36,695 nucleotides of DNA, taken from the NCBI GenBank assembly GCA_005879315.1, contig VBLC01000068.1, positions 1 to 36,695 of the forward strand. The letters are read 5' to 3'. The DNA is from Deltaproteobacteria bacterium (GTDB lineage Bacteria; Myxococcota; Myxococcia; Myxococcales; 40CM-4-68-19). The notes below the pieces were generated by a model. The model did not search any database and was not told the origin of the DNA. It saw nothing but the letters and a program-made list of their open reading frames with translations. How positions within the stretch are numbered: the first letter of the stretch is position 1; each line of letters starts with the position of its first letter. This document shows positions 834 to 14,522 of this stretch, one piece after another. A program made the translations under genes and the position numbers.

Positions 834-1469
834 GTGGAAGCCGCCGTCGCCCTCCCCTTCCCCTTGGCCACGCCGACCGAGCTGGTGCATCCCGCCTGCC
901 CCGCCGACGAGGCTGAATGGGCGCGCGCAGCCGCTGGGGGCGACAAGGTCGCCTTCGCCAGGCTGGTGGAGAAGCACAAGCAGTCCGTGTTCGGCCTCTG
1001 CTACCGACTCCTCGGCGGCGGCGAGGAGGCGCGCGACGCGGCGCAGGAAGCTTTCGTGCGCAGCTACACCGGCATCCGTGACTTCGACCCGCGCCAGCCT
1101 TTCGCGGCCTGGGTGCTGCGCATCGCGCGAAATCATTGTATCGATCTCCTCCGGCGCCGGCGGCCTACGCTGGCTCTGGAGGGCCGGAGTGACGAAGGCC
1201 CCGAGACCGGCGTCGCTCCGGAACTTTCCGATCACTACGCCATGGGAGGCGAGCAAGCAGTGCAGGAGATCGAGGCGCAGCGAGATCTCGACCGAGCCGT
1301 CGCCAGTCTTCCGCCGCGATACCGCGAGGTGATCGCGCTCTTTCACGTGCAGCACAAGAGCTACGCAGAGATCGCGGTGGCCCTGGGCGTGCCGATGGGC
1401 ACGGTGATGACCTGGCTCCATCGAGCTCGCAAGGAGCTGAAGGCGCAGCTTGCGGAGCACCTCTCATGA
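834..1469 (+). CDS. ECF-type RNA polymerase sigma-70 factor
   Basis: 211-residue sigma factor with only regions 2 and 4, the extracytoplasmic-function layout. Region 2 spans about residues 40-109, including the RDAAQEAFVRSY helix and the FAAWVLRIARNHCIDLLRRRR promoter-melting/-10 segment. An acidic linker follows. Region 4 covers about 154-206 (LPPRYREVIALFHVQHKSYA, then a helix-turn-helix ending WLHRARKEL). The start is a GTG at 834; an ATG-initiated form would lose the N-terminus of region 2. The stop overlaps the start of the anti-sigma gene in an ATGA, so the two are translationally coupled. It should direct polymerase to envelope-stress or surface genes when released by its partner. An AACTT at 721-725 could be part of an autoregulatory -35, but I cannot pair it with a convincing -10. 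Confidence 0.95.
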   Translation: MEAAVALPFPLATPTELVHPACPADEAEWARAAAGGDKVAFARLVEKHKQSVFGLCYRLLGGGEEARDAAQEAFVRSYTGIRDFDPRQPFAAWVLRIARNHCIDLLRRRRPTLALEGRSDEGPETGVAPELSDHYAMGGEQAVQEIEAQRDLDRAVASLPPRYREVIALFHVQHKSYAEIAVALGVPMGTVMTWLHRARKELKAQLAEHLS

Positions 1470-1969
1470 GCCACCTCACCGAGACCCAGCTGCAGGGGCT
1501 GGCCGACGGAACGCTGCGCGGGCCCGAGGGTCTCGCCGCGCGCGAGCACTGCGAGACCTGCGCCGGGTGCGACGCGGAGCTCTCCGCCTACGGCGCGTTG
1601 GTGCGCACGCTTTCTGCTCTGCAGGATCCCCCGCCGCCGCTCGATTTCACCGCCTCGGTGCTCGCGGCGGTCGAGGTCCGCGAGACGCAGCTCAGCCAGC
1701 GCCGGCACACGCTCCTGGCTTCGCTCCCCGCCGCGGCGATGGCCATCTTCGCCATCGCCGGCTGGGCGCTCTCCACCACGCCGGCCGCGCACGTCGATCG
1801 GCTCGTCGATGGCGTCACCGTGCTCCGCCACCTCTTCGGCGTGCTCACTCCTGTCTTCAACGCCATGCGCCTGCCGCTCGGCCTGGGCGCGTTCGTCTTC
1901 CTCGCCGTCGTGCTCACTGCGCTCTCGCGCACGCTCCGGCCGATCCACGCTCGCGCTCCGGGAAACTGA
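1466..1969 (+). CDS. Zinc-binding (ZAS) anti-sigma factor, membrane-bound
   Basis: 167-residue protein immediately after the sigma gene (ATGA overlap). The N-terminal cytoplasmic part has the ZAS zinc motif H28-x3-C32-x2-C35 (EHCETCAGC) typical of anti-sigma factors that clamp ECF sigma factors. Two hydrophobic stretches at about 83-102 and 136-154 are likely transmembrane helices, leaving a periplasmic loop of roughly 30 residues that includes HVDRLVDGVTVLRHLF. The function is inferred: it holds the sigma factor inactive at the membrane and releases it on a periplasmic cue. Its stop (TGA 1967-1969) overlaps the ATG of the next gene by one base, so all three genes form one operon. No RsrA-type second cysteine cluster is present. 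Confidence 0.88.
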   Translation: MSHLTETQLQGLADGTLRGPEGLAAREHCETCAGCDAELSAYGALVRTLSALQDPPPPLDFTASVLAAVEVRETQLSQRRHTLLASLPAAAMAIFAIAGWALSTTPAAHVDRLVDGVTVLRHLFGVLTPVFNAMRLPLGLGAFVFLAVVLTALSRTLRPIHARAPGN

Positions 1970-3447
1970 TGTTGCTTCTCGTCGCCCTCCTGCTCTCGAA
2001 CGCCCCCGGCAACGCCGCCGAGGCCCTCGATCGCCTGATGGGCCGCATCGCCGCGCACGGCGCAGCCGGCAAGGCGGTGGCCACGCTCGCCGACAAGGTC
2101 CTCACCTTCGAGGTCACTTCCCAGCAGGACCAGTCGGACGAGGAGGACAGCGGCGGCGACGAGGAGAGCGACGACGATCTCGAAGTCATCCCGCCCGTCG
2201 CGCCCGTCGCGCCCGTTCCCCCGGTGCCGCCAGTCCCGCCCGTTCCTCCCTCGCGCCATCGCGGCATCTGGCGCGCGGGCGACAAGAGCTTCAACTTCGA
2301 ATTCCACACCGGCGACTCCGGCGCCGAGCTGCCCCGCTTCACCGAGAAGGGCAAGAACGTAGCCACCGTCGACGTGCTCCATCGCATCGCCCAGACGGCG
2401 GGTTGGTCGATGACCCTCGTCGGCTCTCCCAAGGAGCGCATCGACATCGACGTCCAGGACGCCGACCCGCGCGAGGCGCTGCGCCAGGTGCTCAAGAAGA
2501 GCGGCGCCATGGGCGTGCTCAAGAGCGACCGGCTGGTGGTGGTGGCTTCACCCGAATCGGAGAGCGCGGGGATGCTCGTCGAGCAGGTCGAGCGCAAGCA
2601 CCGCATCCACACCGGCCGCGGTCTCGGAACCGGTCAAAGTGGGTCGCAGCCGGCGAAGAGGCGCGCGCACGACGACGTCGTCCGCTTCTTCAGTGACGCC
2701 GAGATCGGCCAGGGCACCCTGGTGCGGGGCGACGTGGTCTGCATCGGCTGCTCGATCGAATTGCAGTCGGGCAGCGTCGTCCAGGGCGACACGGTCGCGG
2801 TGGGCGGCAGCGTGGTCGTCAACGAAGGCGCGCTGGTGCTCGGCCAGGCGGTCTCGGTGATGGGCGAGGTGCAGGTCTGGCGGGGCGGACAAGTGATGGG
2901 CGACCACGTCCAGGTCGGCCTCGGCAAGTTCTTTGCCGGCCGCTCGCGGCGGACCCGGCTGATGAGCCTCGGGCCCTTCGGGCTCTTCCCCACCATCGCG
3001 CTCTTTGCCGTCATGTATCTCGTCGGCCTGCTCGCGCTGCGGCTGTGGCCCGAGCGGATGCGCAACGTCTCCAGCGCGATGTTCGAGAATCCGGTGCGCA
3101 GCTTCACGGTCGGGTTCCTCTGCTGGCTCTTGATCGTCCCCCTCGTCGTGCTGCTGGCGATTTCGCTGGTCGGGATTCCTCTCATCCCCCTCTTGCCGGT
3201 GCTCATCTTCCTCAGCATCGTGCTCGGACTTTCCTCCCTGGCGCTGCGCATCGGCGAAGCGCTGCCGGCCGGACCCGGACAGCGTTTCGTGCCTCCCGCC
3301 GCGCTGGGGATGGGGATGATGGTGCTTCTCTTGCTCGCTTTCGTGCCCTGGCTGGGCATCTCGCTGCTGGCTCTCTTGCAGTTCTTTGCGCTGGGCGCCT
3401 CCGTCGGCTCGCGCTTCGGCCGCGCCCTTCCGCCGCACCAGACCTGA
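1969..3447 (+). CDS. Exported STN-like/bactofilin-like multi-pass membrane protein, third gene of the sigma operon
   Basis: 492 residues starting at the ATG that overlaps the anti-sigma stop; an upstream in-frame extension is only antiphase sequence of the anti-sigma gene. Order of parts: short signal peptide (1-17); acidic stretch (55-72); proline/valine linker (74-94) of VPPVPP type; a region at about 130-195 that reads like the STN (secretin/TonB-receptor N-terminal) fold (VDVLHRIAQTAGWSMTLVG, then DADPREALRQVLKKSGAMGV); glycine/valine-rich hexapeptide-like beta-helix repeats at 245-317 resembling bactofilin/polymer-forming proteins (GDVVCIGCSIEL, GDTVAVGGSVVV); then four or five transmembrane helices from 335 to 475. 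STN domains in FecA-type receptors contact the anti-sigma regulator, so I infer this protein passes an envelope signal to the neighbouring anti-sigma factor. The combination is unfamiliar to me. Confidence 0.8.
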   Translation: MLLLVALLLSNAPGNAAEALDRLMGRIAAHGAAGKAVATLADKVLTFEVTSQQDQSDEEDSGGDEESDDDLEVIPPVAPVAPVPPVPPVPPVPPSRHRGIWRAGDKSFNFEFHTGDSGAELPRFTEKGKNVATVDVLHRIAQTAGWSMTLVGSPKERIDIDVQDADPREALRQVLKKSGAMGVLKSDRLVVVASPESESAGMLVEQVERKHRIHTGRGLGTGQSGSQPAKRRAHDDVVRFFSDAEIGQGTLVRGDVVCIGCSIELQSGSVVQGDTVAVGGSVVVNEGALVLGQAVSVMGEVQVWRGGQVMGDHVQVGLGKFFAGRSRRTRLMSLGPFGLFPTIALFAVMYLVGLLALRLWPERMRNVSSAMFENPVRSFTVGFLCWLLIVPLVVLLAISLVGIPLIPLLPVLIFLSIVLGLSSLALRIGEALPAGPGQRFVPPAALGMGMMVLLLLAFVPWLGISLLALLQFFALGASVGSRFGRALPPHQT

Positions 3448-5861: not shown

Positions 5862-7820
5862 TCAGACGAAGCTCATCCCGTCGTGCCCTTCGCCCTGCCC
5901 GTGCAGGATGGCTTCCGTCGCGCTCTTGCGCTTCTCGGTCAGCTGGGAGACGAGCTCGAGGATCTGCGGGTGGGTGAGCACCAGCTCCTGGAAATTCTCC
6001 CGCGGCAGCCGTAGCAGGATGGAGTTGCCCTGCGAGGTCACGGTGGCGGTCGCCGGGTCACGAGTGAGCAGCGACATCTCGCCGAAGATGTCGCCCTCCT
6101 TCAGCCTGGCGAGCTCGATGGGTTGGCGGTCCTTCGCCGTCGCCACTCCGACCGCGCCGTGCAGGACGACATAGAGCCCGTCGGAATTCTCGCCCTCGGT
6201 GATGAGCACCTCGCCGGGACCGGCCTGCTTCATGCGGAACTTCTCGACGATCTGTTTGCGCTCGGCGGGATTGAAATCCTTGAAGAGCGGCGAGATGGCC
6301 ATGACGTTGTTGAGCAGCCGCTGCCGGTAGAAGTTCTTCAGCGAGCTGACCACCTGCGGGTACTTGGCGGCCAGCCCGCGCAGCACCGTGTCGGTGACCT
6401 CGAGGATCTCGGTCTCCTCCTCGGCCGCGACGTTGGCGGTGCGCGGCGCGCCGGAGAGCAGCGCCATCTCGCCGAAGAAGGCCCCTTCGCCCAGATGCGC
6501 GAGGGTGATCTCCTCCTCGTCCGCCATCTTGTACACGCGGACCTTGCCCTCGACGATGATGAAGAAGCTGCGGCCGGGATCGCCCTCGCGGATGATCACC
6601 TCGCCGGGGCCGTGCCGGTGATAGCCGAGCTTGTTGACCAGCTCGACGAACGCCTGCTGCGAGAGATCGTCGAAGAGCGGCACCTTCTTGATCGGCACCT
6701 TCTTGGTTTGCGCAAGCTTGCCGAAAGCGCTCTCCAGCTCTTCATCGGCTGGCGCAGGCTCTCCGCTTTGGCGCTCGACGATCTCTTCATCGGAGGTGAT
6801 CGAGAACAGCTCGATCTCTTCCTCGGCATCGCTGGAGAGGAGATCGGCGATGGGCGATGCGGGCGAGTGCTTCGCTCGCTTCGCTGCGGCGCGCGGTCCC
6901 TTCGCCGCTGGCGCCTCGTCCTCGATGACGATCTCGTCGGAGATGATCACCTCCGGCGCCTTCGCCCTGGCGGGCTTGAGCGGCCGCGAGGGCGGTGGAG
7001 CGGCGGCGGGCTTGATCTCCTCGTCGGGAGTGATCTCGGCCTCGTCGGGGGAGGTGGCGAGGTCCTCTGCGGAAGGCATGAGGATGGCGTCGTCGGGCAG
7101 CTCCTCGGGCTCTTCCTCCGGCGCCATGTCCGGATCGAGATCGATCATGGCCTCCGCGCGCGGAGGCGGCCGGCGTTGCGGAGTGCCTTTCGCCGGCGGA
7201 GCGTCGACCTCGAGCGCTTCCGCGGTCTCGTTCAGATCGATCTCTTCGGGCTCGTCGGGCAAGGGCGGAGGCGGAACGATGGCCTTCCCCGATTTTGGCT
7301 GGAATCCCCGCTGCGGCAGCGCCGGACCGGACCGGGGCGGAGAAGGCATGCCGTCGTCGAGCTCGAGCGGCGCCTCGTCGTCGGGGGGCAGCGCGATCGC
7401 GCCGTCGCGACTCGCCTCCTCGGCGGCGCGCGCCAGCGCAGCGCTCTTGGCCATTTTCAGCCCCGCCTGTTCCAGCGAAACCTTGCCAAAGCGGCGTTCG
7501 TTCACGTTCGTCAGCTGCTTCTGCGCTTCTTCGTTCTGCGGATCGATCTCGAGGATGATCTTGACCGCGCCGATGGCCTTGATCAGCTGTCCTTCGTCGG
7601 CGAAGAACTTCGCGGCGTGCTGATAGGAGCCGATCGCCTTCTCGATCTGGTCCATGCGCCGGTAGGTGTCGCCCAGCCGGAGCCGGTGCTGCATGTCCTT
7701 TGGCTCGGCGCCGACGAGCGTCTCGAGGACCTCGGCCGCCTTCTCGAACTTCGACTTCTTGAGGTACTCGGCGGCCTCGTCCTTGAGCTTGCGAGTGTTG
7801 ACCTGTTCCTTCTTTGCCAT
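5862..7820 (-). CDS. TPR protein with tandem cyclic-nucleotide-binding domains
   Basis: 652 residues, cytoplasmic. Residues 8-110 hold about two to three TPR helical pairs (AAEYLKKSKFEKAAEVLETL, LGDTYRRMDQIEKAIGSYQH). Residues 125-365 are a long acidic, proline-rich, probably disordered linker. Two CRP-like cNMP-binding domains follow at about 378-497 and 508-625. The first has an intact phosphate-binding cassette (FGEMALLSGAPRTA, R460). In the second (FGEMSLLTRDPATA) the arginine position is A590, so it may not bind a nucleotide or may bind something else. There is no DNA-binding helix-turn-helix, so it is not a CRP regulator. I infer a protein-interaction adaptor that responds to cAMP, cGMP or a related ligand. 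ATG at 7820; TTAGAA lies about 12 nt upstream. Confidence 0.9.
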   Translation of the reverse strand: MAKKEQVNTRKLKDEAAEYLKKSKFEKAAEVLETLVGAEPKDMQHRLRLGDTYRRMDQIEKAIGSYQHAAKFFADEGQLIKAIGAVKIILEIDPQNEEAQKQLTNVNERRFGKVSLEQAGLKMAKSAALARAAEEASRDGAIALPPDDEAPLELDDGMPSPPRSGPALPQRGFQPKSGKAIVPPPPLPDEPEEIDLNETAEALEVDAPPAKGTPQRRPPPRAEAMIDLDPDMAPEEEPEELPDDAILMPSAEDLATSPDEAEITPDEEIKPAAAPPPSRPLKPARAKAPEVIISDEIVIEDEAPAAKGPRAAAKRAKHSPASPIADLLSSDAEEEIELFSITSDEEIVERQSGEPAPADEELESAFGKLAQTKKVPIKKVPLFDDLSQQAFVELVNKLGYHRHGPGEVIIREGDPGRSFFIIVEGKVRVYKMADEEEITLAHLGEGAFFGEMALLSGAPRTANVAAEEETEILEVTDTVLRGLAAKYPQVVSSLKNFYRQRLLNNVMAISPLFKDFNPAERKQIVEKFRMKQAGPGEVLITEGENSDGLYVVLHGAVGVATAKDRQPIELARLKEGDIFGEMSLLTRDPATATVTSQGNSILLRLPRENFQELVLTHPQILELVSQLTEKRKSATEAILHGQGEGHDGMSFV

Positions 7821-10305: not shown

Positions 10306-11169
10306 CTATTCCTTCTTCTCCTGCTGCTCGGGCTCCGGAGGCGCGAGCACGCCGGCGGCCGCCTTGGCCCGCTCGTCGGCGACGGCCATGGCGCCTTCCA
10401 GCTGTTCGAGCGCGCTGTCGCTCTCGGCGGTGGCAGACGCGATCCGCTCCGCGGCGGCAGGATCCTGCCCCAGCGCGGCCACGCCGTGCATCGGCGGCGG
10501 CGCCTCCTCCTCGACGATCTTGCGGCTCTCCTCCGACAACTCCTCGAACTCGCGCAAGGTCGGCAGCTGCGTCAGGTCGCGGAGGTTGAACAACTCGAGG
10601 AACTCCTTCGAGGTCCCGTAGAGCAAAGGCCGCCCTGGCTCCTCCTTCTTGCCGAGGATGCGGATCAATTTGCGCTCCAACAGCGCCCGGAGGACCGCCC
10701 CGGAATCGACGCCGCGCAGATCTTCGATCTCCGGCCGCGTGATCGGCTGCCGGTAGGCGACGATGGCCAACGCTTCCAGCGCGGCGCGCGTGAGCCGCAT
10801 CGGCTTCACCGCCAGCATGCGCCGGACGTACGCGCCGACCTGCGCCTCGGTGCGCAGCTGCCAGCGCCCGCCGAGATCGACCAGCGCCACGCCGCCCGAG
10901 CCGGCCGCGTAGATCTTCTGCAGTTCGCCGATCGCGGTCTGCAAGAGCTCCTCCGACAGCTGCGTCGCCTCCAGCAGCGTCGGCATGTCGAGCGGCTTGT
11001 CGGCGGCGAAGAAAAGCGCTTCCAGCACCTGGACGGCGCGCTCCGGCGTGGCGAAGCGGGCCGCCTCGCGAAGGTGGGCCAGCTCGCTCTGAGCTGCCTG
11101 CCGCAGCTCGGCCTCGTCGCTCTCCTGCGGCAGAGGTTCGGGCTGCTTGTCGTCAGCCTCGGTAGTCAA
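10306..11169 (-). CDS. scpB: Segregation and condensation protein ScpB
   Basis: 287-residue kleisin-associated subunit of the SMC-ScpAB condensin complex that compacts and segregates the chromosome. The winged-helix core runs from about residue 42 (ERAVQVLEALFFAADKPLDM) through GGVALVDLGGRWQLRTEAQ, TRAALEALAIVAYRQPITRPEIEDLRGVDSG and the second wing (RKLIRILGKKEEPGRPLLYGTSKEFLELFNL), all strongly diagnostic. A Glu/Ala-rich tail of about 75 residues follows. Its start overlaps the end of scpA by 17 bp, and it is immediately followed by rluB. Expression is presumably coupled through the operon. Confidence 0.96.
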   Translation of the reverse strand: MTTEADDKQPEPLPQESDEAELRQAAQSELAHLREAARFATPERAVQVLEALFFAADKPLDMPTLLEATQLSEELLQTAIGELQKIYAAGSGGVALVDLGGRWQLRTEAQVGAYVRRMLAVKPMRLTRAALEALAIVAYRQPITRPEIEDLRGVDSGAVLRALLERKLIRILGKKEEPGRPLLYGTSKEFLELFNLRDLTQLPTLREFEELSEESRKIVEEEAPPPMHGVAALGQDPAAAERIASATAESDSALEQLEGAMAVADERAKAAAGVLAPPEPEQQEKKE

Positions 11170-11947
11170 GCCCCACTCCTTCCGCGGACTCGTCGAGCAG
11201 CGCCTCGGTGCGCGAGAGATAGATCTCGCTGTGCCGCTCCGGCTGATGCACCTTGACCAGCTTGAGCCGCGCCATCTCCAGCACCGCGAGGAAGGTGGGC
11301 ACCACCCGCTCGGCGCTCCTCAGCTCGTCGAAGAGCGAAGTGAAAGTGACGTTCTCGTTCTCCCGCAGGCGATCGATGATCACCGCGATGCGGTCGCTGA
11401 TGGAGAGGCGCTCGACGAAGATCTCGTGCGGGATCTCGATCCGCCGCTCGGCCAGAACCCTGGCGAGCAGCTCGATCAATCGGTAGACCGACACCTCCGG
11501 CGACTTGAGGTACGCCACTTCGTCGGGCGCCAGCGGCAACCGCTCGCGCGCGCGCCGCACGAAGATGTCGCGGCCCAGCTGGGGAAGCCGCTGCAGCCGC
11601 GCGCCGGCATCCTTGTACTTCTGGTACTCGAGCAGCCGGCGGACCAGCTCCTCGCGGGGATCCGGCCCGGCCTCGCCTTCCAGGGCCTCCGGCTCCGGCC
11701 GCGGCAGCAGCATGCGCGACTTGAGGTGCGCCAGCGTCGCGCCCATCAGGAGATATTCGCCGGCGAGATCGATGTTGAGCTCGCGCGCGGCCTCGACGTA
11801 CTCCAGGTATTTGTCGACGATGAAGGCGATGGGGATGTCGAAGATGTCGACCTTGTGCTCGTGGATGAGCGACAGCAGCAGATCGAGCGGCCCCTCGAAC
11901 GAGGGCAGCGCCACGGCGAAGGGCTTCGGTGCTTGCGCTGCTTCCAT
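11153..11947 (-). CDS. scpA: Segregation and condensation protein ScpA (kleisin)
   Basis: 264 residues. Kleisin subunit that bridges the SMC head domains. The N-terminal signature FEGPLDLLLSLIHEHKVDIFDIPIAFIVDKYLEY is clear, followed by LAGEYLLMGATLAHLKSRMLLP. The C-terminal winged helix (NVTFTSLFDELRSAERVVPTFLAVLEMARLKLVKVHQ) is also present. The start is the ATG at 11947 (MEAAQAPKPF), 5 bp after the trpS stop; upstream in-frame sequence belongs to trpS in another phase. It overlaps scpB by 17 bp. Length is normal for the family. Confidence 0.96.
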   Translation of the reverse strand: MEAAQAPKPFAVALPSFEGPLDLLLSLIHEHKVDIFDIPIAFIVDKYLEYVEAARELNIDLAGEYLLMGATLAHLKSRMLLPRPEPEALEGEAGPDPREELVRRLLEYQKYKDAGARLQRLPQLGRDIFVRRARERLPLAPDEVAYLKSPEVSVYRLIELLARVLAERRIEIPHEIFVERLSISDRIAVIIDRLRENENVTFTSLFDELRSAERVVPTFLAVLEMARLKLVKVHQPERHSEIYLSRTEALLDESAEGVGLDYRG

Positions 11948-11952
11948 CGAGA

Positions 11953-12951
11953 TCAGCTCAGCTGCATCGCCGCGCGCACTTTGACCATCGTCTCCTCGGC
12001 GACGGCGCGCGCCTTCGCGGTACCCAGCTGCACCAGCTCCTCGACGCGCTCTGGATTCAGTCTGGCCCGCGCCGCGCGATGCTTCTCCAGCGCAGGGAGG
12101 AGGCTCTCGAGCAGCAGCTTCTTGCAGTCGACGCAGCCGATGCCCGCGCTGCGGCACTCGCGGTCGACCATCTCCACCCGCTCGGGAGAGCTGTAGGCGC
12201 GGTGCAGGTGATAGATGGGGCAGATCTCGGGATGGCCGGGATCGTGGCGCCGCTTGCGCGCCGGATCGGTCACCGCGACCATGATGCGCTTGCGCGCCTG
12301 CTCCGGGTCTTCGCCGAGCTCGACGGCGTTGCCGTAGCTCTTGCTCATCTTGCGGCCATCGAGGCCGAGGATCTTGGGGACCTCGGTCAAGTAAGGGTGC
12401 GGCTCGACCAGCACCCTCCCGTAGAGGTGATTGAAGCGGCGCACCAGCTCGCGCGCCAGCTCGAGGTGAGAGACCTGGTCCTGCCCGACCGGCACCGCAT
12501 CCGCTCCGTAGAGGGCGATGTCCGCGGTCTGCAGCACCGGGTAGCCGAGAAACCCGTAGTTGTTCAGCTCCTTCTCGCCCAGCTCCTGCTGCTGTTCCTT
12601 GAAGGTCGGCACCCGCTCCAGCCAGCCGATCGGAGCGACCATGCCGAGCAGGAGGAAGAGCTCGGCGTGCTGCTTGACCTGGCTCTGCACGAAGAACGTG
12701 CAGCGCTCGGGGTCGAGACCGGCCGCGATCCAATCGGTGAACATCTCGCGCTGCGCCTCGCGGATCCCGGAAGGGTCCTTGTAATCGGTGGTGAGCGCGT
12801 GCCAGTCGGCGGAGAAGAAGAAGCACTCCGCTTTCCTGGAGATCTCGATCCAGTTCTTCACCGCGCCGTGATAGTGGCCGAGGTGCAAGCGCCCGGTCGG
12901 CCGCATGCCGGAGACGACGCGCTTCGGAGTTCGCTGGGGTGCGTCCGCCAT
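11953..12951 (-). CDS. trpS: Tryptophanyl-tRNA synthetase with an iron-sulfur-type cysteine motif
   Basis: 332-residue class I aminoacyl-tRNA synthetase charging tRNA-Trp. The ATP-binding HIGH motif is H23-L-G-H26 and KMSKS is at 201-205. GATE-like specificity segments (GYPVLQTADIALYGADAVPVGQDQ) are intact. Near the anticodon-binding region it has C244-x21-C266-x6-C273-x2-C276. This closely resembles the C-x22-C-x6-C-x2-C cluster that binds [4Fe-4S] in Thermotoga maritima TrpRS. It lies between xerD and scpA in a co-directional train, 27 bp after xerD on the coordinate scale. ATG at 12951; GGAAGGGGA lies about 17 nt upstream, so ribosome recognition is unclear. Confidence 0.97.
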   Translation of the reverse strand: MADAPQRTPKRVVSGMRPTGRLHLGHYHGAVKNWIEISRKAECFFFSADWHALTTDYKDPSGIREAQREMFTDWIAAGLDPERCTFFVQSQVKQHAELFLLLGMVAPIGWLERVPTFKEQQQELGEKELNNYGFLGYPVLQTADIALYGADAVPVGQDQVSHLELARELVRRFNHLYGRVLVEPHPYLTEVPKILGLDGRKMSKSYGNAVELGEDPEQARKRIMVAVTDPARKRRHDPGHPEICPIYHLHRAYSSPERVEMVDRECRSAGIGCVDCKKLLLESLLPALEKHRAARARLNPERVEELVQLGTAKARAVAEETMVKVRAAMQLS

Positions 12952-12978
12952 GGAAGGGGACGCAACATAACACCGGCC

Positions 12979-13896
12979 TCAGGCCCTTGGGTGCCTCGAG
13001 ATCACGGCTTTGAGCCGCTCGCGATCGACGTGCGTGTAGATCTGCGTGGTGGCGATGTCGGCATGGCCGAGCATGGCCTGCACCGCCCGCAAGTCGGCCC
13101 CGCGCTCGAGCAGGTGGGTGGCGAAGCTGTGGCGGAGCGTGTGCGGATGAACGCGCCGCTCGATCCCCGCCGCGCGCGCGTAGCGGCCGAGCAGCTTCCA
13201 GAATCCCTGCCGGGTCATCCGCGCCCCGCGCTGCGTGACGAAGAGATCGGTGGTGCGGCAGCCGCCGAGCAATCTCATCCGCGGTCCGGCGAGATAGACA
13301 TCGAGAGCCTGGCGGGCGCGCTCGCCGACCGGCACGATCCGCTCCTTGCCGCCCTTGCCGCGGACGCGAACCACGCCGAGGTTGCGGTCGATGGCGCCGA
13401 ACGGCAGCGCCACCAGCTCCGAGACACGCAGGCCGCTCGCGTAGAGCACCTCGAGCATCGCCTTGTCGCGCGCGCCGGCGGCGGTGCGCGCATCGGGCTG
13501 CAGGAGGAGGCGATCGACTTCATCGACGGCGAGGAAATCCGGCAGCGGACGGGAGCCGCGCGTCGCTTCGACTCCTTCGGCGGGATCGGCCGGCGCCATC
13601 CCTTCGGCGTTGGCGAACTTGTGCAATCCTCGCACCGCCGCGAGATGCCGCGCCTGCGAAGCGCGCGAGAGCCCTCGCGTGTGCAGCGCCGCCAGATGCT
13701 GGAGGACGAGCGGCTCGGTCACCTCCGCCAGCCGGGAGATTCCCTGCTCCGGGAGCCAGTCGAGATACTCACGCAGGTCGCGCGCGTAGGACTCGAGTGT
13801 GGCCGGCGAGAGCGCGCGCTCGACGCGCAAGTGCGCCAGGTAACGATCGAGCGCCGTGTCCAGCGGGGAAGGCGCTTCCTTGAGGACCGCGTTCAT
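12979..13896 (-). CDS. xerD: Site-specific tyrosine recombinase XerD
   Basis: 305 residues, typical length for XerC/XerD, which resolve chromosome dimers at dif with FtsK. An N-terminal SAM-like core-binding domain spans about 10-105. The catalytic domain has all expected residues: R157 (ASGLRVSE), K181 (RGKGGKER), H252 and R255 (HTLRH), H278 (LGHADI) and the nucleophile Y287 (TQIYTHV). The start ATG at 13896 overlaps the yciO stop in ATGA. I prefer XerD to XerC from the overall pattern and length, but without alignment the choice is tentative. The neighbours are housekeeping, and no attachment site is visible, so it is not a mobile-element integrase. Confidence 0.9.
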
Positions 13897-14522
13897 GCGA
13901 CGTCGAGCCTTCCCTTTCCTTCGCGCAACACGACCGGGACGGGCCCGGTCAGATCCAGCACCGTCGAGGGCTCGTTGAGAACGAGGCCCCCGTCGAGGAT
14001 GAGATCGATGCCCTCGCCCAGGTGCGCCTGGATGTCGGCGGCGTCTACGAGCGGCTCTTCCTCCGGCAGCGAGGCGCTGGTCGTGGCGAGGGGCCGGCCG
14101 AGGCCGCGCACCAGCGCGAGCGCGACCGGCGCGTCGGGAACCCGCACCCCCACCTGCCGCTGCCGCGTCAGCGCGGTGCGCGGCACGAGCCGCGTCGCCT
14201 GCAGCACGATGGTGTACGGCCCCGGCAACAGCCGGCGCATCAAGCGATAGTTTTCGTTGGAGACGATCCCGTAGCGCGCGACCTCCCCCAGATCGGCGCA
14301 GAGGAAGGCGAACGGCTTGCGCGCCTCGCGCCGCTTCAGTTGCGCGAGGCGCTCCATCGCCCGCTTCTGGAACAGATCGCAACCGACCGCGTAGTAGGTG
14401 TCGGTCGGGTAGGAGACGATGCCGCCGTCCTCGAGGATGGTGACCGCGCGCTGCACGTGCCGCGGCTGCGGGTGCCGCGGATCGATCGGCTGGATGGGCG
14501 CACTCCTGGCCACGAGCGCCAT
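13893..14522 (-). CDS. yciO: YciO-type Sua5/YciO/YrdC-family protein
   Basis: 209 residues from the ATG at 14522. A TTG at 14549 could add nine residues, but the family starts close to IxPxNPQxRH, matched here by [15 protein letters not shown]. The YrdC fold is visible: [17 protein letters not shown], then [65 protein letters not shown] and the closing [17 protein letters not shown] together with CxDLxE is characteristic of YciO, whereas threonylcarbamoyl-AMP synthases (TsaC/Sua5) differ at these positions. YciO is proposed to be a weak or alternative threonylcarbamoyl-adenylate enzyme. The stop overlaps xerD. It is the first gene of the train and has no recognisable Shine-Dalgarno. Confidence 0.88.

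Follow-up and report, generated by a model that had tools for sequence, protein, structure and literature searches.

The question raised by this locus is what a putative envelope protein of new domain make-up, here called P3, does as the third gene of an ECF sigma factor operon. The first-pass annotation of the window (the whole stretch of DNA analysed, 36,695 nucleotides) had taken it for a possible sensor, whose STN-like segment would talk to the anti-sigma factor as in Fec-type signalling and so provide an envelope-sensing route that needs no TonB receptor.

Organisation of the operon and its regulators

The features on which our analysis rests are the following:

798-824, + strand: predicted autoregulatory promoter TGAAATA-N16-CGTA, SigW-like, conserved upstream of orthologous sigma genes
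834-3447, + strand: three-gene operon (sigma, anti-sigma, P3), co-directional and overlapping head to tail
834-1469, + strand: ECF sigma gene, 211 aa, with Pfam Sigma70_r2 and r4_2; closest profile SigW, below cut-off
1466-1969, + strand: anti-sigma gene, 167 aa, with a zinc-type N-terminal domain, two transmembrane helices and a short loop
1969-3447, + strand: third gene P3 (ATG at 1969), 492 aa, predicted envelope protein
1969-2019, + strand: P3 signal peptide region, hydrophobic N-terminus MLLLVALLL...NAA, with similar N-termini in relatives
2128-2250, + strand: P3 acidic, then Pro-rich spacer, read from the translation and variable in relatives
2338-2547, + strand: P3 STN/N0-fold domain, residues 124-193, from AF2, structural alignment and relatives above the Pfam cut-off
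2677-2916, + strand: P3 bactofilin-like beta-solenoid, residues 237-316, from AF2 (pLDDT about 80) and alignment with BacA
2986-3426, + strand: P3 membrane bundle of at least four helices, residues 340-486, from hydropathy, with AF2 helices at low confidence

The sigma and anti-sigma genes overlap in an ATGA (1466-1469), and the anti-sigma stop overlaps the P3 start in a TGATG (1967-1971). No TonB receptor gene lies within the operon (834-3447), PADLOC returned no match, and the gene adjoining P3 downstream is convergent and unrelated, being glucose/sorbosone dehydrogenase-like. Elsewhere in the window, the minus-strand gene at 5862-7820 encodes a protein that has two cyclic-nucleotide-binding domains and whose middle is acidic and Pro-rich; it is followed by scpB, scpA and a tyrosine recombinase gene (10306-14382).

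The sigma factor matched Sigma70_r2 (E 1.9e-19) and Sigma70_r4_2 (E 7.6e-19) and has none of the larger sigma70 regions, the composition that defines an ECF factor. Against the NCBIfam SigW profiles it scored 150.3 and 138 bits, where the cut-offs are 209 or 243, and it therefore falls outside the SigW equivalog. Its partner carries the N-terminal zinc motif HX3CX2C (H28, C32, C35) of zinc-type class I anti-sigma factors of the RsiW/ChrR kind, matched the NCBIfam antisigma profile (E 2.5e-6) and, by hydropathy, has transmembrane helices at 83-101 and 136-154 with a periplasmic loop of about 34 residues between them. The zinc motif recurs in 44 of the 48 anti-sigma relatives and the pair of helices in 40; in three orthologues (L053, L062, L044) the zinc-ligand cysteines are missing from an operon that is otherwise intact. 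While Fec-type anti-sigma factors combine a single transmembrane helix with a periplasmic CJM+STN receptor (PMC7186176), the anti-sigma protein here has two helices, and no FecR-type CJM+STN domain was found in it. By its sigma domains and its zinc motif, the module belongs with the ECF sigma/zinc-type anti-sigma systems.

Domains and fold of P3

The domain order that the first-pass annotation had read into P3 was borne out. An acidic stretch (2128-2184) and a Pro-rich one (2191-2250) do separate the signal peptide from the STN part in the translation, and the STN-like segment itself is supported by profiles, relatives and predicted fold. AlphaFold gave STN topology at residues 124-193 with a pLDDT of about 80-87, in agreement with the expectation that residues 130-195 would fold in this way, and the region aligned structurally with the STN/N0 domains of EscC, PilQ, DotD, GspD, FpvA, FecA and PupR at Z 7-10 (VIA Z 9.6 to EscC, 7.4 to FecA and PupR). 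Our fold assignment rests on these structural-alignment Z-scores and not on Foldseek E-values, which were weak for the whole P3 model (best E 0.012) because only a single domain was matched. Residues of about 124-193 have the STN/N0 fold.

Profile searches, which had been proposed as a check for both domains, succeeded for one of them only. The window's own P3 does not reach the Pfam STN cut-off (PF07660; E 0.12, 12.6 bits against 28.4), while relatives from other families exceed it at E 5e-16, 3e-13, 9e-8 and 6e-9. A profile made only from the STN of other families matched residues 130-180 of the window protein at E 5.7e-8; the same profile matched none of 1000 shuffled copies at E <= 10. Pfam Bactofilin (PF04519), on the other hand, found no match in the window's P3, and the best relative reached 23.5 bits against a cut-off of 27.9. 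P3 as a classical bactofilin was rejected on this cut-off; the same genomes encode true bactofilins in genes of their own. A sequence search of the PDB with the P3 beta repeats gave weak antifreeze/ice-binding and autotransporter matches only.

The bactofilin-like character of the repeats comes from structure: residues 237-316 aligned with the bactofilin BacA (2n3d) over 77 residues at Z 8.5 and rmsd 2.1, whereas several left-handed hexapeptide helices aligned at an rmsd of about 11, as expected of a right-handed beta-solenoid. Together with the hydropathy of the C-terminal part, this alignment supports the proposed joining of STN, bactofilin-like repeats and membrane bundle in one protein, with the STN and beta-solenoid parts predicted to face the periplasm. 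The bundle was modelled at a pLDDT of about 50-62, alone or in context, and we give its fold no name. The N-terminal part of P3 varies between families, with PEGA plus STN in one relative (L042, 4699-7026) and tandem STN in family f6 (L060). In two genomes of family f9 (L048, L061) STN is absent from P3, and in L061 the operon is kept.

Conservation across the Myxococcales

Among 145 Myxococcales genomes, 118 encode both the orthologous sigma factor and P3, 15 neither, seven P3 only and five the sigma factor only. All five sigma-only cases are cut by contig ends and six of the seven P3-only cases lie at contig ends, which leaves a single genuine exception, G024 (L048), where P3 stands mid-contig with no sigma pair and no STN. 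A true loss of P3 from a genome that kept the sigma gene was never seen in this set. Orthologous sigma factors split cleanly from their paralogues in the order (E below 1e-70 versus above 1e-51). The named relatives, obtained by a family-alignment search of genome contigs, are ten soil MAGs labelled Deltaproteobacteria or Myxococcales; a genome-contig search with the single P3 protein as query gave no match.

The gene order is equally stable. Of 39 P3 loci with upstream sequence, 38 are directly preceded by the sigma gene on the same strand, as are 17 of a further 20, where the three exceptions are secondary duplicates; four P3 homologues from outside the Myxococcales also have a sigma/anti-sigma pair upstream. 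In all 38 relatives compared, the distance between the anti-sigma gene and P3 lies within -4 to +26 nt. The anticipated conservation of the three-gene order was therefore confirmed, and homologues of P3 are not routinely found away from sigma pairs (four of the 59 loci checked, three of them the duplicates just mentioned). With 118 genomes, chance clustering of the three genes was rejected. Nearly all Myxococcales carry this self-activating sigma/anti-sigma stress switch with P3 as its third gene.

Promoter and predicted regulon

Upstream regions of the window's family share TGAAATA-N15/16-CGTA, and a motif of the GAAATA or GCAATG type precedes 35 of 39 orthologous sigma genes. In Bacillus subtilis the SigW consensus is TGAAAC-N16,17-CGTA (PMC2375139), from which the operon promoter motif differs by one base. 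The sigma factor is predicted to use TGAAATA-type promoters. In 26 of the 35 promoter-bearing orthologues exactly 9 nt separate CGTA from the sigma start codon, as they do in the window, whereas the figure is mostly 20-35 nt at other regulon genes. With this distance transcription would begin at about the start codon, so that, judging from sequence, the sigma mRNA is probably leaderless and conserved as such across the order. Compared with families f1 and f6 (L032-L070), the -35 element has changed from GAAATA to GCAATG in family f4 (L046-L067), with CGTA and spacing retained, a possible case of co-evolution between sigma factor and promoter.

Regulon searches used strict promoter patterns only, with the reversed pattern as control. 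Sites outnumbered controls by 5 to 0 in the window's own genome, 19 to 1 in its family, 39 to 2 in eight other genomes and 29 to 5 in five Myxococcaceae-type genomes. Genes close behind the sites encode, among others, secreted or lipoprotein-like peptidases (M3, S8 twice, M13, S9, DUF885) as well as Yip1, PspC, DUF2807, DUF4097, DUF1232 and a signal peptidase. Not every site is real: in the larger genomes, several have no convincing gene behind them. The genome also encodes other ECF sigma factors, which might use similar promoters, and for this reason the regulon is best read as predicted. As such it would be of the envelope-stress type, and the envelope link that had been proposed for the module gains support from its peptidases, PspC, Yip1, DUF2807 and DUF4097. 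Five relatives have no strict site in the genome other than the operon promoter, which would leave P3 as the sole non-regulatory product in them. Two further candidates, a secreted methyltransferase-like protein (L135, L152) and a secreted protein starting ...WSLDLTVxDVGxGIG (L142, L168), each stand behind the promoter in two genomes and belong to no Pfam family.

Besides P3 itself, the P3 core profile picks up small secreted proteins with a bactofilin-like beta-solenoid, in effect a soluble P3 paralogue. From 20 such genes picked by similarity and blind to promoters, 15 have a promoter site close before the start (L236, L239, L240, L242, L244-L249, L251-L255), where shuffles would lead one to expect 0.08 regions, and at least two more carry the one-base variant GCAATC-N15-CGTA (L238, L241). 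The soluble paralogue is present in several families, often some kb to tens of kb from the P3 operon in Myxococcaceae-type genomes; none was detected in the window's own family. Two P3 duplicates that have lost both regulatory genes (L116, L117) retain the promoter too, and there it is followed by an apparent relic of the sigma start. L120 is likewise a duplicated P3 without sigma and anti-sigma.

What P3 might do

Computation establishes the operon, its domains, its strict co-inheritance and its conserved promoter, the last also in front of P3 duplicates and the soluble paralogue. Building on these, we favour, at about even odds, a reading in which an envelope-stress circuit has P3 as a main output: a periplasmic scaffold anchored in the membrane, perhaps with a feedback role. 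At rest, the two-helix zinc-type anti-sigma factor would hold the sigma factor at the inner membrane; envelope damage would free it, and free sigma would transcribe its own operon from TGAAATA-N16-CGTA along with a small set of envelope genes. P3 would then be the built-in output, its C-terminal bundle sitting in the inner membrane and its STN domain and bactofilin-like beta-solenoid exposed to the periplasm, where, with the co-induced soluble paralogue, it may act as a scaffold that protects or organises the envelope under stress. The output role is favoured because P3 is encoded behind the sigma factor's own predicted promoter, because it resembles another product of the same regulon, because promoter-bearing duplicates survive without regulators, and because it would be the only non-regulatory product of strict sites in the five relatives mentioned above. 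Against it count the absence of a detected soluble paralogue from the window's family, the other ECF sigma factors and the lack of a confident model for the bundle, as well as the regulatory role that third membrane proteins often have in sigma operons. A more specific version, in which P3 and the soluble beta-solenoid make up a stress-induced periplasmic bactofilin-like scaffold, an extracytoplasmic counterpart of the bactofilin cytoskeleton, strikes us as unlikely.

Regulation is indeed the role that competes most directly. As a co-regulator, P3 would place its bundle with the anti-sigma helices, and envelope damage would be sensed by its periplasmic part, or titrate it, in the manner of RseB; alternatively, P3 would serve as another anti-sigma subunit and so complete a negative feedback loop. 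We regard this as a serious alternative, though somewhat less probable than an output role. B. subtilis YhdK is one precedent for a co-regulator of this kind. Another is RseB, which is encoded in the operon and binds the periplasmic domain of RseA (PMC8103513). That P3 is never truly lost from a sigma-bearing genome fits output and co-regulator equally well, and its constant position right behind the anti-sigma gene and the membrane bundle, the most conserved part of the P3 family, also speak for a regulatory partner. However, P3 contains no RseB-like domain, its duplicates persist under the promoter without either regulator, G024 has retained P3 although the sigma pair is absent, and the co-regulated soluble paralogue, itself a beta-solenoid, suggests a structural product.

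The Fec-like route of the first-pass annotation, with the STN domain contacting the anti-sigma periplasmic loop and relaying an envelope signal without TonB, now appears quite improbable. There is a real STN fold beside the anti-sigma gene, and STN domains are known to bind one another as well as the receptor domains of anti-sigma factors (PMC7186176, PMC11637429), but the zinc-type anti-sigma protein lacks the defining receptor domain and offers only its short loop. Moreover, the STN domain is dispensable, as the family f9 operon in L061 shows, and its copy number changes (two in f6, PEGA added in L042) with no obvious change in the anti-sigma loop. What survives of the proposed TonB-free route is that the operon contains no TonB receptor; signalling between STN and anti-sigma factor found no support. 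Nor is a sensor our leading reading of P3, given the f9 proteins without STN, its place behind the sigma factor's predicted promoter and the duplicates without sigma and anti-sigma.

Comparison with known systems

What emerges is a predicted envelope-stress circuit that is near-universal among the Myxococcales, an order in which predatory and multicellular bacteria abound. Its promoter is predicted, its regulon can be tested, and its obligate third component has a new domain make-up; bactofilin-type solenoids may, on this evidence, also serve outside the cytoplasm. By phylogeny the operon is expected in Myxococcus xanthus, where these predictions are testable. In the literature searched, which included few subscription journals, we found no description of an obligate third gene with STN, bactofilin-like solenoid and membrane bundle, and work joining bactofilin, anti-sigma and ECF came to a review and an unrelated study only. 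Within that literature, the pairing of STN with a bactofilin-like solenoid has not been reported before.

Among the closest known systems is SigW-RsiW of B. subtilis, whose regulon answers envelope stress and includes PspC, DUF4097 and peptidases. Shared features are the SigW-closest sigma profile, the zinc-type anti-sigma factor, a near-identical promoter with TGAAAT-N16/17-CGTA here against TGAAAC-N16,17-CGTA there and, as predicted here, a regulon with the same kinds of genes. The present module differs in its two-helix anti-sigma factor, its obligate third gene with STN and beta-solenoid, its Gram-negative host, its apparently leaderless sigma mRNA and a sigma factor below the SigW family cut-off. 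What it shares with RpoE-RseA-RseB is an autoregulated operon that encodes a sigma factor, a membrane anti-sigma factor and, as its third product, an envelope protein. However, P3 is membrane-anchored, the anti-sigma factor has no long periplasmic domain, and membership was rejected since neither the window protein nor its relatives had a Pfam match to an RseB/MucB domain. The Fec/Pup/Fox systems likewise combine an ECF sigma factor, a membrane anti-sigma factor and an STN-bearing protein, but membership in this group was rejected as well: there is no FecR/PupR-type receptor domain, and the STN of P3 leads into a beta-solenoid and an inner-membrane-type bundle instead of being part of a TonB-dependent transducer. 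Bactofilins (BacA, BacM, BacN-P) share the beta-solenoid fold that aligns with BacA, whereas P3 is predicted to be periplasmic, adds a signal peptide, STN and membrane bundle, and stays below the Pfam Bactofilin cut-off. Overall, by analogy the module would work like SigW-RsiW and RpoE-RseA, as an autoregulated envelope-stress sigma factor held by a membrane anti-sigma factor.
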